A stretch of 64,000 nucleotides of DNA from the NCBI GenBank assembly GCA_020161575.1, contig JAIUNR010000004.1, positions 248,001-312,000 on the forward strand, in the 5' to 3' direction. The number at the start of each line of letters is the position of its first letter. Position 1 is the stretch's first letter. This DNA comes from Pseudomonadota bacterium (GTDB taxonomy: Bacteria; Pseudomonadota; Alphaproteobacteria; Rhizobiales; Beijerinckiaceae). Positions 29,895 to 41,330 of the stretch are shown here, piece by piece. The translations under genes were made by a program, and so were the position numbers. The notes under the pieces were generated by a model that made no database searches, was not told where the DNA came from, and was given only the letters and a program-made list of their open reading frames with translations.

Positions 29895-30911
29895 GTGGCC
29901 GCGCTCAAACCCAGCGAGATTACACGCTTTCTTGCTTCCGGCTGCCTCAAGACGCCGCTGATCCTGCTGCACGGGCCCGATGAGGGATTGGTGAGGCTGC
30001 GCGCGAAAGCCATCGCACGAGCGATACTGGGCGAGGGTGCAGACCCGCTCTCCCGCCTCGATTATGATGCAGAGAGCCTGAACAGCGATCACGGCCGCCT
30101 GCTCGACGAGGCCAATGCAATCGCGATGTTCGGCGGCAAACGCGTTATTCTCGTCGGTAATGCCGGAAAACTGCAGAAAGTGGCATGGCAGCCGCTCTTC
30201 CAGGTGCCGCCGCTCGATTCCACCATCATCTTTCAGGCGGATGACCTCGCCAAGACATCGCCTCTTCGCGTGGCCGCGGAGCAATCGGGCGATGCCGTTG
30301 CCATTGCCTGCTATGCGCCCTCACGCCAGGATCTCCAGGAAATTATCGACCGCCGCGCGCAGGAAAACGGCCTATCGATCACGCCGGTTGCGCGCGCTTA
30401 TCTCGCCGAACTGCTCGGCACCGATCAGGCCTTGTCCGAGCAGGAAATCGAGAAACTCATTCTCTATTGCAAGGGGCGACTCGCGATCGATGTCGCCGAT
30501 ATCGATACGATGATCACGGATTCGTCCGAGCTTTCCGGCTCGGAGCCAATCGATCGCGCTTTCGAAGGCAAGCTGGAAGATGTGGAATCCGTAGCCTTGA
30601 GATCATTTCGGGAGGGAATCAATCCCTCCGGCCTGCTCGCCATGGCGATCAATCATGCGCTGCTCCTCAGGAGGCTGGCTCACGCGCGCCAGAATTCCTC
30701 CCTCGATGCCGCGTTGCGCGCCGAGCGCGTTTTCTTCCGCCGGCAGGATCGGGTCAAGCTTCAGGCCGGGTTGTGGGACCAGCAAGGCCTTGCCCGCACC
30801 CTGGACGTGCTGGCAAGTGCGCAGGACCAGACCCGACATACGCCGGGCCTCGAAGAGATCATTGCAATCCGCGCGCTTTGGTCGATCGCGCTGGCCTCAC
30901 GCCGTCGGTGA
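29895..30911 (+). CDS. holA: DNA polymerase III subunit delta
   Basis: The 338-residue clamp-loader wrench. The N-terminal AAA+-like domain begins AALKPSEITRFLASGCLKTPLILLHGPDEGLVRLRAKAIA, the mid-section has ILVGNAGKLQKVAWQPLF and AEQSGDAVAIACYAP, and the C-terminal collar domain includes REGINPSGLLAMAINHALLLRRLAHAR. As in other delta subunits the ATP-binding motif is degenerate. It starts at GTG 29895, 12 bases after lptE. Its last 15 bases overlap the end of convergent parB. Confidence 0.92.
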   Translation: MAALKPSEITRFLASGCLKTPLILLHGPDEGLVRLRAKAIARAILGEGADPLSRLDYDAESLNSDHGRLLDEANAIAMFGGKRVILVGNAGKLQKVAWQPLFQVPPLDSTIIFQADDLAKTSPLRVAAEQSGDAVAIACYAPSRQDLQEIIDRRAQENGLSITPVARAYLAELLGTDQALSEQEIEKLILYCKGRLAIDVADIDTMITDSSELSGSEPIDRAFEGKLEDVESVALRSFREGINPSGLLAMAINHALLLRRLAHARQNSSLDAALRAERVFFRRQDRVKLQAGLWDQQGLARTLDVLASAQDQTRHTPGLEEIIAIRALWSIALASRRR

Positions 30912-31793
30912 ACCGATTGCCGCCAGCCGATGGCTCAGGGCCTCGAGCTGCTCGATGGTGCGGTAGCGGATCTTGAGAATTCCGCCCTTCTCGCCGCGGT
31001 GATCAACGGAGACCTCCAGCCCGAGGATCTCCGACAGGCGCTTTTCAAGAACCAACGTATCCGCATCCTGCGCCGGCTTGCGCTTGGGTTGGCGAGCTTC
31101 ATCGGGCGCTTCGGTCTCGCGTTGCGCGATGCGCTCGACATCCCTTACCGTAAGCCCTTGGTCAACAATGCGTTTTGCAACAAGCTCTGGGTCGGATACC
31201 GAAAGAAGCGCGCGGGCGTGTCCGGCCGAGACCGCCCCCGAATTGACATGCGCCTTCACGCTTTCGGGCAGGCGCGAAAGACGCAGCGTATTGGCCACAT
31301 GGCTGCGGCTTTTGCCCATGACCTTGGCAAGATCGTTTTGCGTGTACGAGAACTGAGCAATGAGATTTTCATAGCCACGCGCCTCATCCAACGGATTGAG
31401 ATCCGCGCGCTGAATATTCTCGATAATCGCGAATTCCAGAGCCTGCCGGTCATCGGCTTCGACAATGACCACCGGCACGTCATGCAGTCCGGCACGCTGG
31501 GCAGCGCGCCAGCGACGCTCGCCGGCGATGATCTCATAAGCATCCGGCAACCCGGTAACATTCCGAACCACAATCGGCTGGATAATGTCACGCTCCCGAA
31601 TCGATGCGGTCAGCTCTTCAAGCTCCGCCTCGGGAAAGGCCTGCCGGGGATTGAGCGGGTTTGGCCGCAGGAATTCGATGGGAACTCGGCGCTGCGCGCG
31701 GTTGCGGCTTTCGGCTTCTGTTTCGTTGCCGACATCGCCCAGCAGGGCCGCCAATCCGCGCCCGAGGCGCATGCGGGGGTTGTCTTCAGCCAT
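30897..31793 (-). CDS. parB: Chromosome-partitioning protein ParB
   Basis: A 298-residue CTPase and centromere-binding protein. The opening MRLGRGLAALLGD is typical. The CTP-binding ParB/Srx domain covers IPIEFLRPNPLNPRQAF, ELTASIRERDIIQPIVVR, and the GERRWRAAQRAGL box; the helix-turn-helix comes next (LAKVMGKSRSHVANTLRLSRLPESVK), then the dimerisation tail. It spreads from parS sites, two of which lie 1.4 and 3.4 kb away in this window. The second of two adjacent ATGs (31793) sits better behind AAGGAGGGG. It lies 10 bases after parA. Confidence 0.95.
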   Translation of the reverse strand: MAEDNPRMRLGRGLAALLGDVGNETEAESRNRAQRRVPIEFLRPNPLNPRQAFPEAELEELTASIRERDIIQPIVVRNVTGLPDAYEIIAGERRWRAAQRAGLHDVPVVIVEADDRQALEFAIIENIQRADLNPLDEARGYENLIAQFSYTQNDLAKVMGKSRSHVANTLRLSRLPESVKAHVNSGAVSAGHARALLSVSDPELVAKRIVDQGLTVRDVERIAQRETEAPDEARQPKRKPAQDADTLVLEKRLSEILGLEVSVDHRGEKGGILKIRYRTIEQLEALSHRLAAIGSPTA

Positions 31794-31803
31794 CATCCCC
31801 TCC

Positions 31804-32595
31804 TTATTCCGCAGCCAGCAGGCTACGTTCGCGCTGGATCACTTCCGAGGCCAATCGCAAATAGGCCTGGCTTCCGGTGCACTTGAGATCATAGAGCAAT
31901 GCCGGCTTGCCATAGGACGGCGCCTCGGAAAGCCGGACATTACGAGGAATTACGGTCTCGAAAACCTTCCGCCCCAGGAACTGGCGCACGTCGCGAATGA
32001 CCTGATTGGCGAGATTGTTTCGCGGGTCGAACATCGTCAGGACAACCCCATGGATCTCAAGCTGCGGATTGATGCTGGAACGCACCTGCTCGACCGTCTT
32101 AAGCAATTGGCTTAGCCCTTCCAGGGCGAAGAACTCGCATTGCAGCGGCACAAGAATACCGTCCGCCGCGGCCATCGCGTTGATCGTCAGAAGATTGAGC
32201 GAGGGCGGGCAATCAATCAGGATATAGGAAAAGGCGGCGCCGTCCTTCTGGATTGCCGATTTGAGCCGGTATGTCCGATCCTTCGCGGTAGCCAGCGTGA
32301 TCTCGGCACCGAGGAGGTCCATCGTTGCCGGAATGATCGACACCCTCGGAACATCCGTCACGACCGCGGCTTCGGCGAGGCTCGCCTCCCCCATCAGGAC
32401 GTCATACGCGCTCTGCTTGCGCGCGCGCATCTCCACGCCCAACCCGGTCGAGGCGTTTCCCTGTGGATCAAGGTCAATCAGGAGGACGGTCTCGCCAATC
32501 GCGGCCAGCGCCGTCGCCAGATTGATGGCCGTTGTCGTTTTTCCAACGCCGCCTTTCTGGTTGGCAACAGTCAGAACACGAGGCGTATTGGACAT
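31804..32595 (-). CDS. parA: Chromosome-partitioning ATPase ParA
   Basis: A 263-residue deviant-Walker ATPase that forms a nucleoid gradient and moves ParB-parS complexes. The P-loop is NQKGGVGKTTTAINLA at residues 12-27, carrying the signature KGGxGK lysine; Walker B is LLIDLDPQGNASTGLG and the second motif YILIDCPPSLNLLT. The C-terminal DNA-binding helix region is VFETVIPRNVRLSEAPSYGKP. A GGAGCC site precedes the ATG. It forms an operon with parB. Confidence 0.97.
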   Translation of the reverse strand: MSNTPRVLTVANQKGGVGKTTTAINLATALAAIGETVLLIDLDPQGNASTGLGVEMRARKQSAYDVLMGEASLAEAAVVTDVPRVSIIPATMDLLGAEITLATAKDRTYRLKSAIQKDGAAFSYILIDCPPSLNLLTINAMAAADGILVPLQCEFFALEGLSQLLKTVEQVRSSINPQLEIHGVVLTMFDPRNNLANQVIRDVRQFLGRKVFETVIPRNVRLSEAPSYGKPALLYDLKCTGSQAYLRLASEVIQRERSLLAAE

Positions 32596-32649: not shown

Positions 32650-33282
32650 TCAAGGCTGCGGCATCGTGATCTCGAGGATCTGCGCGCCGCGATCGGTCAG
32701 GCTCTTGTGATAGCGACAACAGAAATGCCAGCTTTGTTGGGCCTGGGTCAATTCTTCTTCGAATCCCCGCCCCTTTGGAAAGAGGGCGGTTGCCCCCCTT
32801 TTCAACAGGAGATTGGTGAAACCCATGAGATCACCGAGAGGGGCCAGCGCGCGCGCAGTGACAAAATCGGGCTGAGGAAGCGTCTCCACCACTGCTTCGA
32901 TCCGTGCGGCATGGATGGTTGCCGGCAGGTTCAGCTCTCCCGCCACGAATCGAAGAAAAGCCGCCTTCTTGCCGTTGCTCTCAACCAGATCGATATGCGC
33001 TCCCTTGATGTCAGCGAGGAAACACCCGATCACGATACCCGGTAGTCCACCACCGGAACCAATATCCAACCAACGGGCATTCGTACGGCCCAGCGCCAAA
33101 ATCTGCACGGAATCGGTGATATGACGTTGCCAGACCTCCGACACAGTCGAGGGTCCGATGAGATTGATCCGCGCCTGCCATGCAAGGAGATGAGAAACGT
33201 ATCGCTCAAGGCGCCCGAATGTTTCACGTGAAACAGGGACAATGGCGTTGAGTCGATCCAACTGACCAGATACTTCAGGCAA
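32650..33282 (-). CDS. rsmG: 16S rRNA (guanine-527-N7) methyltransferase RsmG
   Basis: A 210-residue SAM-dependent enzyme (old name GidB) that methylates G527 of 16S rRNA; its loss gives low-level streptomycin resistance. The SAM motif [14 protein letters not shown] is at about residues 72-85, followed by [12 protein letters not shown] and [10 protein letters not shown]. The start is TTG 33282 with GGAGAAGGGGG upstream, overlapping the mnmG stop by 8 bases. A perfect parS site (33220-33235) lies within the coding region and is translated as part of VSRET. Confidence 0.94.
33220..33235. promoter_or_regulatory. parS centromere site 1 (inside rsmG)
   Basis: The perfect 16-bp palindrome TGTTTCACGTGAAACA, identical to the consensus bacterial parS. 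It is about 6.2 kb from the left edge of the oriC candidate and 1.4 kb from parB. Confidence 0.97.
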
Positions 33283-35155: not shown

Positions 35156-35171
35156 TGTTTCACGTGAAACA
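35156..35171. promoter_or_regulatory. parS centromere site 2 (between mnmE and mnmG)
   Basis: A second perfect copy of TGTTTCACGTGAAACA, lying in the 46-base gap between mnmE and mnmG and 1,936 bases from site 1. It is about 4.3 kb from the left edge of the oriC candidate. Confidence 0.97.
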
Positions 35172-37996: not shown

Positions 37997-38422
37997 TCAG
38001 AAAGGTTTAACGATTACCAATAACACGATGCCGATCATCAGCAAGGTCGGCACCTCGTTCTGGATGCGAAAGAAGCGCGGCTGATGACGGCGCTGGTCTT
38101 GAGCGAATTCCTTCAGCCAGCGTTCCTGAAAAGCGTGATGAACGCTCAGGGCGATGACCAGCACGAGTTTGGCGTGCAGCCAGCCGCCGCGAAAGCCGAA
38201 CGTGTCCCAGGCCATCCACAAGCCGGTCATCCAGGCAACCAGGCTGGCGGGCCGCATGATCGCCGCCATCAGCCGGCGTTCCATGATCTTGAAGGTCTCG
38301 CTTGCTTCCGATCCCGGCGAAGTCCCGGCGTGATAGACGAAGAGACGCGGCAGATAGAGCAAGCCGGCCATCCACGAGATGATCGCGAGGACATGGATCG
38401 ACTTGACGATGAGAAAGCTCAT
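37997..38422 (-). CDS. hemJ: Protoporphyrinogen IX oxidase HemJ
   Basis: A 141-residue integral membrane protein that oxidises protoporphyrinogen IX to protoporphyrin IX, the penultimate step of heme synthesis. Four hydrophobic helices are visible ([74 protein letters not shown]), with the conserved His in helix 1 and in VHHAF used for heme binding. Its start overlaps the end of hemE by 4 bases (ATGA), so both enzymes are made together. Confidence 0.94.
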
Positions 38423-39438
38423 CCACGCACCTTTTTCAGCATCCTCTCGACATGCGCGATCGGCGTATGCGGCAGGATACCATGGCCGAGATTGAAGACA
38501 TGGCGGGTCCCACGGGTGGTTGCGAGAATATGATCAACCGCTTCATCGAGCGCTTCCCCGCCAGCAACGAGCACCAGGGGATCGAGATTGCCCTGCGTCA
38601 CGATTCCATCGTCAAGCGCCGCGCGCGCGGCCTCCAGGCGACAGGAGGTATCAAGGCCGATGGCATCCGCTTTCGTATGCAGGGAAAACGCCGAAAAACC
38701 ACCGGGCATGGCCCGCGGAAAGGCGATAACCGGAACAGCCGGAAAACGGGCATTGACCCCGGCGACGATCCGCGCCGCTGGCTCCTCGCAATAACGGCGG
38801 AACTCGCCTTCAGGAAGCACGCCCGCCCATGAATCAAAAATCTGCACGGCTTCCGCGCCGGCTTCGATCTGCGCGCAAAGATGCGTGATGCAGGCCTCGA
38901 CCAGGGTATCAATCAGATTGCCAAAGGCCGCGCGATGACGATAGGCAAAGTCACGTGCCGGCGCCTGATCCGGCGTGCCCTTACCGGCGATCATATAGGT
39001 CGCCAGCGTCCAGGGCGCGCCGCAGAAGCCGATCAAGGCTGTCTCAGGCGGAAGTGCCGCCCTGACGCCCCGCAAGGCCTCATAGACCGGCTGGAGCTTC
39101 GCCAGATCGATCCGGCGCGAAAGACGAGAGAGATGCTCGGGCGTCTCGCATGCATCGAGGCGCGGGCCCTCACCCTCCACGAAACGAACCTGCTGCCCGA
39201 GCGCGTCGGGGATCACGAGGATGTCGGAAAAGATGATCGCGGCGTCAAAGCCAAAACGGCGGATCGGCTGAAGGGTTGCCTCGACAGCTAATTCCGGCGT
39301 GTAGCAGAAATCAAGAAAGCTACGCGCGCTGGCCCGGATCTCTCGATATTCCGGCAGATAACGTCCCGCCTGCCGCATGAGCCAGATCGGCGGGCGTTGA
39401 GCGACGGGACCACGAAAGGCCTCAAGGAAGGGCTTCAC
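38419..39438 (-). CDS. hemE: Uroporphyrinogen decarboxylase
   Basis: A 339-residue enzyme that converts uroporphyrinogen III to coproporphyrinogen III. The N-terminal signature PIWLMRQAGRYLPEYRE is at about 17-33, with the substrate-binding Arg and the downstream Asp in FSDILVIPDALGQQV. Also seen are GFCGAPWTLATYMI, FDSWAGVL and FNLGHGILP with the C-terminal His. The start is GTG 39438. It is the last leftward gene before the candidate origin and is co-transcribed with hemJ. Confidence 0.96.
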   Translation of the reverse strand: MKPFLEAFRGPVAQRPPIWLMRQAGRYLPEYREIRASARSFLDFCYTPELAVEATLQPIRRFGFDAAIIFSDILVIPDALGQQVRFVEGEGPRLDACETPEHLSRLSRRIDLAKLQPVYEALRGVRAALPPETALIGFCGAPWTLATYMIAGKGTPDQAPARDFAYRHRAAFGNLIDTLVEACITHLCAQIEAGAEAVQIFDSWAGVLPEGEFRRYCEEPAARIVAGVNARFPAVPVIAFPRAMPGGFSAFSLHTKADAIGLDTSCRLEAARAALDDGIVTQGNLDPLVLVAGGEALDEAVDHILATTRGTRHVFNLGHGILPHTPIAHVERMLKKVRG

Positions 39439-39870
39439 GGTTTTCCAAGCCTTTCAAAACAAGAAAAGAGAATCTTCTCTTTTATTTCTATTCTCTAGGC
39501 CGACTTAATCCGGAATTCGTTGCATATCCACACTTGGCTGCCAGAGATGGCAGAAAAACGTATTCCCCGCAGGGGAACCCTGCATCGATAGCGCATTGAA
39601 TTAAGTGCTGTTTCATCGCTTTCGGCACGGTTTATCCCCGCTTATCCCCGCTCTTCCCGGTTCACTAGGCAGTATCCTCCCGCAAGCATCCTTGTGAATG
39701 AAGGAACGGGTCATCCACAGCGTCCGACCTTGCAGCAGACGATCCCGGCGGATTCAGCCGCCGGAAGCACGGTTATCCAGAGCTTGACAACAGGGCTGTG
39801 GGGAAGTCGGTTGAAATCCGGAGCGGCCTTTGAAGCCCTCTGTTTTGGACCCTTCACCGAAACGAGTTTC
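39439..39870. other. Candidate chromosomal replication origin (oriC) between hemE and ppsR
   Basis: A 432-base gap without a gene between divergent hemE and ppsR. It contains an AT-rich tract (39451-39500) with a 9-bp inverted repeat AAAAGAGAA / TTCTCTTTT (39464-39483), a second inverted repeat GCAGGG / CCCTGC (39569-39583), and six nonamers close to the DnaA box TTATCCACA: ATATCCACA 39524, TTATCCCCG 39632 and 39642, TCATCCACA 39711, TTATCCAGA 39773, and TTCCCCACA on the minus strand at 39797-39805. Three differ by one base, three by two. GAATC at 39470 and GATTC at 39751 are potential CcrM sites. The hemE/RP001(ppsR) junction is the known origin locus in Caulobacter and Rickettsia. Confidence 0.85.
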
Positions 39871-40704
39871 ATGGGCCGCAGTTTCTTTCATCTCCATCTG
39901 GTTTCCGATTCCACGGGTGAAACCCTGATCACGGTCGCCAGGGCCGCCACAGCCTATTATTCCGGTATCTCACCGATCGAGCATGTCTATCCTCTGATCC
40001 GCAATGACCGTCAGCTCGACCGCGTGATCACGGAGATCGAGAATGAGCCGGGGATCGTGCTCTACACGCTGGTGGATGAGACGCTTTCCGCGCGCCTTCA
40101 GAATGCATGCGCGGAGCATGGCTGCCCGCATCTTTCGGTGCTTGATCCCGTCGTCAATCTTTTCCAATCCTATCTCGGCGTCGCCACCACCCCAAAAGTC
40201 GGCGCGCAACATATGCTGAACGCGGAGTATTTCCGCCGTATCGACGCACTGAATTTCACGATGATGCATGATGACGGGCAATTGACCGAGAATCTCGATC
40301 AAGCCGATGTCGTGTTGGTGGGTATCAGCCGCACGTCGAAGACGCCCACCAGCATCTACCTCGCCAATCGCGGGATCAAGACCGCCAATGTTCCCCTGGT
40401 GCCGAACATGCCGATCCCGTCGGTGCTGGAAACGCTGACCAGACCGCTGGTGATCGGGCTCGTCGCCTCGCCCGAACGCATCGTCCAGATCCGCCAGAAC
40501 CGCCTGCTCGCGCTCAATGCCGGCGACAAGGACGCAACCTATATCGATCGGCAGGCGGTCACGGAGGAGGTCACGCAGGCACGTCGCCTCTTTGATCGCC
40601 ATGGCTGGCCTGTGATCGATGTCACCCGCCGCTCGATCGAGGAAACCGCCGCGGCGATTATCGATCTCTATCGCTCCCATCGTCTGGCTTCGATCGCGCA
40701 ATGA
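39871..40704 (+). CDS. ppsR: Pyruvate, phosphate dikinase regulatory kinase/pyrophosphorylase (DUF299)
   Basis: A 277-residue bifunctional protein that phosphorylates and dephosphorylates PEP-synthesising dikinases using ADP and pyrophosphate. It opens with [15 protein letters not shown], the family signature, and carries a P-loop-like [18 protein letters not shown], then [14 protein letters not shown] and [20 protein letters not shown] 39871 is the family start; the frame is open back to a GTG at 39694, but that portion overlaps the DnaA-box region and is not conserved in kind. It is the first rightward gene from the origin and overlaps maf by 4 bases. Confidence 0.92.
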
Positions 40705-41330
40705 ATAATCCCGTCTCCTCCTTCTGGCTGGCCAAAGAACCCCTCGCTTTGGCTTCGGGCAGCATCACCCGGCGGAAAATGCTGGAGGATGCGAAAATCC
40801 CGCTCGAAATCGTGAGAGCGCCGGTCGATGAGGGCAAGTTGGCCGCGGACCTGCTGGCCGCTGGCGCAGGCCCGGCTACCATCGCCTCCGAACTCGCGCG
40901 CGCAAAGCTTGAAGCTGCGATGGCGCTTCTGCCGAACCGCCTCATTCTCGCCGCCGACCAGACGCTCGATCAAGATGGACAGCTCGGCATGAAATCGCCG
41001 ACAAGGGAGGGCGCGCGCGATGCCTTGCGCCATTTGCGCGGGAAGCGTCACCACCTTCATTCCGCCGCCTGCCTCGCGCTCGATGGCAAGGTCGTCTGGC
41101 AGGGGTTGGAGAGCGCGGCCCTGACAATGCGCGATTTCTCGGATGCGTTCCTTGAAGCCTATATGGTCGCCATGGGCGATACGCTTCTCGATTCGGTGGG
41201 GGGCTACCAGCTCGAAGCGCTGGGCATCCATCTCTTTGAACGGGTAGAGGGTGATCACGCGGTCATTCTCGGCCTGCCGCTTCGATCCGTACTGGATGCC
41301 CTGCGCCGGTTAGGCGCGTTGCTTGTGTGA
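40701..41330 (+). CDS. maf: Maf-family nucleotide pyrophosphatase
   Basis: A 209-residue nucleoside-triphosphate pyrophosphatase that removes modified or non-canonical nucleotides. The N-terminal signature [14 protein letters not shown] is at about 13-26 (the usual LASxSxRR form), followed by [15 protein letters not shown] with the catalytic Asp and [17 protein letters not shown]. Its order after ppsR and before aroE-coaE-dnaQ is standard for alphaproteobacteria. The start ATG overlaps the ppsR stop (ATGA), suggesting coupled translation. Confidence 0.93.

Follow-up and report, generated by a model that had tools for sequence, protein, structure and literature searches.

The hemE-ppsR intergenic region as the probable chromosomal replication origin of a Rhabdaerophilum-like bacterium

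The surroundings of the divergent genes hemE and ppsR were analysed in a 64,000-base stretch of DNA (the window), which comprises bases 248001-312000 of contig C4 (387,050 bases) in a genome of 3,186,646 bases and 17 contigs. The nearest named relatives by ppsR were Rhabdaerophilum calidifontis (86% identity) and Beijerinckiaceae MAGs. The features of the locus are summarized in Table 1. The genes hemE (one copy in the genome), hemJ, rho, mnmE, mnmG, rsmG, parA and parB run leftward, and ppsR, maf, aroE, coaE and dnaQ run rightward. This layout, obtained from gene calls and curated models, is in accordance with that given in a preliminary description of the DNA, and the PRK05339 match of ppsR confirmed it as the RP001-type gene. 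The names mnmE, mnmG and rsmG were given by eye from the translations, and the other flanking genes were run against NCBIfam, where maf and parA had matches below the model cut-offs only; the latter is probably parA judging from its position beside parB. Two exact 16-mers, which we take to be parS sites from their motif, stand near parAB at distances of 4.3 and 6.2 kb to the left of the gap. The genome also has a RAMA-domain (CcrM-type) gene and a gene for GcrA. No Rfam match was found in 38300-41000, and no claim of a known RNA, for instance a CcnA-like one, is made there.

The space between hemE and ppsR had been described as the largest gene-free gap. The codon-model gene call (66 genes) also gave it as the longest gene-free stretch of the window, with 372 b against 317 b for the next, even though this call placed the ppsR start early, at 39811. 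The codon model was trained on 15 genes of the window, including hemE and ppsR. A GC3 check of genes and gaps called wrong frames and was discarded, and the codon model was used instead.

Table 1. Coordinates of the genes and sequence features at the hemE-ppsR locus (positions in the window)
Feature	Position	Strand	Remarks
parB	30897..31796	-	TIGR00180, 189 bits, cut-off 58
parA-type partition ATPase	31804..32595	-	ParA/MinD-family matches below their cut-offs
putative parS, exact 16-mer	33220..33235	.	motif match
putative parS, exact 16-mer	35156..35171	.	motif match
hemE, left boundary gene	38419..39438	-	TIGR01464, 395 bits, cut-off 303
hemE-ppsR intergenic region, proposed chromosomal origin (oriC)	39439..39870	.	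432 bases, between divergent genes
AT-rich tract, proposed DNA unwinding element	39450..39499	.	least stable 50-mer of the window
AT-rich perfect inverted repeat, 9-base arms, 2-base centre	39464..39483	.	4/200 mononucleotide shuffles reach 9
GANTC (GAATC), CcrM-type methylation site, centre of the inverted repeat	39470..39474	.	inside the least stable 30-mer of the gap, 39463-39492
DnaA box ATATCCACA	39524..39532	+	matrix score 8.7; TCCACA core here in 11/14 aligned gaps
weak DnaA box TTATCCCCG, first of tandem pair	39632..39640	+	score 7.4
weak DnaA box TTATCCCCG, second of tandem pair, 10 b apart	39642..39650	+	score 7.4
DnaA box TCATTCACA	39693..39701	-	score 12.5; TGTGA or TGTGG kept in 7/14 aligned gaps
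DnaA box TCATCCACA, best in the gap	39711..39719	+	score 14.0
second GANTC (GATTC)	39751..39755	.	motif match
DnaA box TTATCCAGA	39773..39781	+	score 6.8
TTGACA, possible -35 of a ppsR promoter	39784..39789	+	7/14 aligned gaps; next DnaA box in the spacer
DnaA box TTCCCCACA	39797..39805	-	score 7.5; TGTGG kept in 10/14 aligned gaps
ppsR (COG1806/RP001 type), right boundary gene	39871..40704	+	PRK05339, 347 bits, cut-off 225

The AT-rich tract and the inverted repeat that had been noted in the gap were both recovered, the repeat with perfect 9-base arms. The 387-kb contig has three such 50-mer places, the tract among them. At a length of 30 bases, the least stable stretch of the gap belongs to seven such places of the contig, and one other position of the window is less stable. 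In 52 related gaps, the twelfth that corresponds to this tract is the richest in AT. Further inverted repeats (39745-39764, 39538-39553, 39563-39577 and 39569-39583) were set aside as they fall in stretches that are not kept in the genus alignment.

The DnaA boxes of the gap were counted by mismatch and by matrix. With at most one mismatch to TTATCCACA, four sites were found in the 64 kb and three of them lie inside the gap (39524, 39711 and 39773), where 0.021 are expected in 432 b (Poisson P(≥3) = 1.6e-6); exact TTATCCACA was not found in the gap. The matrix, trained outside the genus, added boxes at 39632, 39642, 39693 (minus strand) and 39797 (minus strand), giving a total of seven. The earlier description of six DnaA-box-like nonamers is therefore corrected in its total, while its three single-mismatch sites and the occurrence of boxes on both strands stand. 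Conservation of the boxes was read from 14 aligned gaps (the own one, 12 others from the genus and one from a sister genus, L137). The best-scoring box at 39711 is poorly kept in the genus, with TCCACA there in only 3 of the 14, and the middle of the gap with the two TTATCCCCG boxes is poorly conserved in the genus alignment.

For the DnaA matrix, EM was run with a fixed site prior and a second-order background on 44 gaps from outside the genus, and the own gap was not in the training. It converged on TTATCCACA when seeded with that box itself or with NNNTCCACA. Two CtrA-like seeds led to the reverse complement of the box in a shifted frame (GTGGATAAG), an A-rich seed led to TGGATAAGT, and the seed TCCACAGNN led to TCCACAGGC. 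A free-EM matrix drifted into an AT-rich motif, ranked AT-rich DNA and was discarded. The scan covered 1.86 of the 3.19 Mb of the genome in 76,354 overlapping 432-b windows. The gap holds six sites at a score of at least 7, and all seven windows with six or more sites sit at the gap; this cut-off was not set beforehand, and the uniqueness of six sites holds at that cut-off only. At a cut-off of 8 the gap has three sites, a number equalled or exceeded at 57 distinct loci, its own included. At lower cut-offs the loci at the level of the gap, again counting its own, were 5 for cut-off 6 (seven sites), 6 for cut-off 5 (eight sites), 26 for cut-off 4 (nine sites) and 204 for cut-off 3. The summed DnaA affinity of the gap ranked 31 of the 76,354 windows. 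The matrix comparison that had been suggested in the preliminary description thus gave an excess over the rest of the 1.86 Mb examined, at a cut-off not set beforehand. The 52 related gaps had a median of six sites, whereas 184 control stretches of the same loci averaged 0.96; many of these gaps, though not the own gap, belonged to the matrix training set.

DnaA reservoir and reactivation sites are known as datA and DARS. The dense weak boxes would also suit such a site, with the true origin nearby or at dnaA. Against this reading, no other stretch examined has six boxes at cut-off 7, and the window has no other equally unstable 50-mer. The GC skew bears on the same question. The genome is in 17 contigs, so the skew was judged contig by contig only. 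The cumulative skew of the whole of C4 forms a clean V, with negative mean skew left of the minimum and positive mean skew right of it. The minimum falls at position 41081 of the window, 1.2 kb right of the gap, which could be counted in favour of a reservoir. A bootstrap with the switch assumed in the gap gave minima straying by 1.65 kb (median) and 7.7 kb (95%); the offset lies within this error and is compatible with a switch in the gap. The skew analysis proposed earlier thus agrees with the location. The other contigs were sampled over 1,477,487 b. Skew was positive in 17 of 17 samples of C1 and 7 of 7 of C7, and negative in 12 of 12 of C2, 11 of 11 of C3 and 8 of 8 of C5, while C6 was mixed (three positive of seven). 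No skew switch was seen within the samples of five of the six other contigs above 250 kb; as the contigs are not oriented relative to each other, the samples show only that a second clean switch was not seen. All 12 samples of C2, the contig that carries dnaA, agree in sign, and the reservoir reading was regarded as hardly credible. The sign changes more than once in C6 and C8, and these contigs may contain the terminus or foreign DNA.

The skew was also followed in two relatives. In a single-contig genome of the same family (G025, 4.24 Mb, 20 stretches) it flips at the hemE-ppsR junction: 5 of 6 stretches are negative before it, 9 of 10 positive after it and then 4 of 4 negative, with 2 of the 20 of wrong sign. 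The second flip lies between 2.82 and 3.10 Mb, and the point opposite the junction is at 2.82 Mb. In a genome of the same genus (G003) the test was noisy and showed a weak flip, which was taken as weak support, with nine mixed stretches left of the junction and three of four positive to the right; three further stretches on other contigs were left out of this count.

The neighbourhood is conserved among relatives. Of 80 named loci, 61 have hemE next to ppsR in divergent orientation, and their gaps measure 336-676 b (mostly 370-460). The same arrangement was found in 46 of 48 class-wide loci. The 61 loci less nine near-duplicates make up the 52 related gaps, from which the own gap is excluded. 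The top hexamer in these gaps is the DnaA-box core TCCACA/TGTGGA, with 99 occurrences against 10.4 expected from dinucleotide shuffles, in 47 of the 52; at stricter redundancy removal TCCACA is found in 43 of 48. hemE was not found in the stretch examined at the other 19 of the 80 loci (for example L162, L168, L175, L181, L184 and L185). By eye, a HemJ-like protein is next to ppsR in eight of these (L142, L162, L165, L168, L175, L181, L184 and L185), and Rho in L174. At L199 only 413 b upstream of ppsR were covered. At L156, ppsR has moved and follows a plus-strand gene resembling CoA-transferase.

hemE and ppsR are divergent, and their promoters must therefore lie in the gap. The TTGACA block before ppsR, present in half of the aligned gaps, is in accordance with this. 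The combination of TTGACA with a DnaA-box core before ppsR, taken as a strict pattern, occurred in only 2 of the 52 dereplicated gaps. A gap that is a divergent promoter region, with DnaA acting as a transcription factor and the origin placed elsewhere, is nevertheless very improbable: the skew switch coincides with the gap both here and in G025, DnaA boxes still stand upstream of ppsR at the loci where hemE was not found, and the gap belongs to the most easily melted DNA in the contig by predicted stability.

The chromosomal origin of Sinorhizobium meliloti lies at hemE. That organism belongs to the same order. Like the gap studied here, its origin is without CtrA motifs; the origin of S. meliloti is also unbound by CtrA, as stated in the available text of PMC4433202. 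The hemE/COG1806 junction is the chromosomal origin of Caulobacter and Rickettsia according to the part of PMC1914354 available, as the preliminary description had stated, and the experimental status of the Caulobacter junction also speaks against a mere reservoir. The Caulobacter crescentus origin Cori (hemE / CC0001) has the same boundary genes, an AT-rich tract and mostly weak DnaA boxes. Excerpts of PMC4468827 and PMC4285127 give it two moderate G-boxes and five W-boxes with the consensus TCCCCA, and the tandem TTATCCCCG pair and TTCCCCACA resemble the latter. Cori also contains five CtrA sites and one IHF site, whereas the own gap has consensus sites of neither: CtrA TTAA-N7-TTAA was found 0 times in it, and IHF WATCAN5WTR and WATCAAN4TTR were absent, though the IHF consensus is degenerate and IHF may still bind. 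The CtrA sites are not defining for the class, since the S. meliloti origin also has none (PMC4433202). In the related gaps of the order (L140-L205), 16 of the 52 contain TTAA-N7-TTAA, with 19 occurrences in all where 0.5 are expected, and it was absent from the own gap; a 2015 review (PMC4468827), in the portion available, has such sites unseen in origins beyond Caulobacter and possibly Rickettsia. In the Rickettsiales (Rickettsia, Wolbachia, Ehrlichia and Anaplasma) the available text of PMC1914354 likewise describes a hemE boundary and DnaA boxes, with COG1806 also in Rickettsia. Unlike here, CtrA sites are reported there in most, not all, and the flanking gene is changed in Wolbachia.

The basal unwinding system (DnaA box, spacer and DnaA-trios) was compared as well. 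The gap shares with it DnaA boxes near an AT-rich tract. That system has a spacer of up to 16 b after the box and then at least three NAN trios on the opposite strand, whereas no box of the seven here has more than two NTN triplets in succession within the next 16 b; no box of the gap stands before [TA]A[GA] triplets in this geometry either. For A-rich triplets [TA]A[GA] on the minus strand the excess was mild, with a mean longest run of 2.62 versus 1.98 shuffled in the genus and 2.47 versus 1.89 in the order, where 6 of 45 gaps had runs of at least four against 0.7. In the class outside the order (L246-L293), the AT tract on the hemE side often passes into G-periodic triplets, for example TAGTAGTTG, after which TGTGGAT follows. 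These have the DnaA-trio geometry, yet their middle base is often T or G, not A; trios without the middle adenine are suspected in the available part of PMC8287927. The pattern T[ATG]G, which was defined after inspecting the sequences, had a mean longest run of 2.77 versus 1.49 shuffled on the plus strand (minus strand 1.19 versus 1.25). Runs of at least four were found in 11 of 43 class gaps outside the order, where 0.1 are expected; the 8 gaps of the genus and the 45 of the rest of the order had none. Plus-strand [CT]TT runs of at least four were seen in the AT tract of 6 of 45 order gaps outside the genus (0.1 expected), by eye mainly in Beijerinckiaceae MAGs.

The results taken together suggest, with a probability of about 0.95 on the sequence evidence, that the gap is a bidirectional, DnaA-dependent chromosomal replication origin of the hemE-ppsR type. 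The candidate put forward in the preliminary description is thus supported by the skew switch, the DnaA-box excess and the conserved neighbourhood. As an origin it is ordinary, being of an already known kind and placed as expected for the class. In the proposed mechanism, DnaA would load first on the better boxes at 39711 and 39693 and then on that at 39524. It would spread to the weak boxes, namely the two tandem TTATCCCC boxes, which are separated by one helical turn, and those at 39773 and 39797. The DnaA oligomer would melt the AT-rich inverted repeat region at 39450-39499 beside hemE. Helicases would load at the melted tract, and two forks would leave, one via hemE-rho-parAB and the other via ppsR-dnaQ. 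The gap, the boxes and their excess, the AT tract, the skew switch, the conserved neighbourhood and the nearby parS sites are the observations behind this scheme, from which DnaA binding, its loading order and melting at 39450-39499 are predicted.

The AT-rich tract also holds a CcrM-type site, and the distribution of GANTC in the related gaps was analysed. GANTC occurred 186 times against 107.8 expected, in 51 of the 52 gaps, and was densest in the AT-rich twelfth beside hemE (54 of 186). Within the first 75 b beside hemE, 44 of the 52 gaps contain it (11.5 expected), and it was the strongest XYNZW pattern there among the patterns seen in at least 10 gaps; the 75-base window was picked after the pile-up had been seen. 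At stricter redundancy removal the figure was 41 of 48 against 10.6, with a maximum of 19 in 500 shuffles. Seven of the nine near-duplicates dropped before these counts also have GANTC in the first 75 b (L136 and L138 do not). The base at N was A in 27, T in 16, C in 12 and G in 11 cases, and the presence of all four bases is what conservation of the methylation site itself would predict. A test on the least stable 60 b is free of the choice of window. GANTC was present there in the own gap, in 6 of 9 gaps of the own genus and one sister (1.5 expected), in 34 of 44 of the rest of the order (7.4 expected) and, in the class outside the order, in 18 of 35 with CcrM (6.4 expected) and 2 of 7 without CcrM (1.2 expected), the last control being too small. 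CcrM was scored by the RAMA domain (PF18755) only. Of the 48 class loci, the two without divergent hemE, L272 (sub-cut-off RAMA) and the near-duplicates L247, L256 and L276 were left out of this count. The positional tests used mononucleotide shuffles and counted loci as independent of phylogeny. AGNCT was also raised in the AT tract (19 of 44, below the 34 of 44 of GANTC), as expected from AT-rich inverted repeats.

The GANTC in the proposed unwinding tract likely has some conserved function. It adjoins the start of hemE, and GcrA, of which this genome has a gene together with the RAMA-domain one, acts on promoters with methylated GANTC according to the available text of PMC8116508. Methylation-controlled transcription of hemE from a GcrA/CcrM promoter, without any function in the origin, is accordingly a serious possibility, with a chance a little short of even. 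The reported dispensability of CcrM for initiation control in Caulobacter (PMC3973325, text available in part) fits this, as does Agrobacterium, where excerpts of PMC11514494 report no obvious difference at ori1 and a delayed ori2 on CcrM depletion. However, 16 of 18 loci without hemE found beside ppsR keep a GANTC in the least stable tract against 3.0 expected (the nineteenth, L156, was excluded as ppsR had moved there), although that promoter could also serve the gene standing in place of hemE. The site also lies inside the least stable DNA. An unwinding element built around a CcrM site throughout the Hyphomicrobiales, in which full or hemi-methylation or CcrM itself helps to time duplex opening, is an unlikely proposal. 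CcrM is reported to open a bubble at its own recognition site (PMC6787082), and several GANTC motifs are present in the origin of Caulobacter and close species according to 2009 work cited in PMC3973325. The published Caulobacter and Agrobacterium data argue against GANTC methylation as a simple initiation switch. Among the matches listed from one library, none describes, in its title or the start of its abstract, a GANTC site in the unwinding tract conserved across the Hyphomicrobiales.

The analysis gives a defined 432-base probable origin for Rhabdaerophilum-like bacteria, a little-studied genus whose name a full-text search found in four papers, once or twice in each. In a fragmented assembly, the gap would also fix where the replicon begins and which way it runs. 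The comparison makes testable the old question of why CcrM sites occur in alphaproteobacterial origins while CcrM is reported to be dispensable for initiation control in Caulobacter. If the proposal on the unwinding element is true, alphaproteobacteria would have in this site, within the unwinding tract itself, a counterpart of Dam/SeqA control, and it may offset the loss of the DnaA-trio-like element that is seen outside the order.
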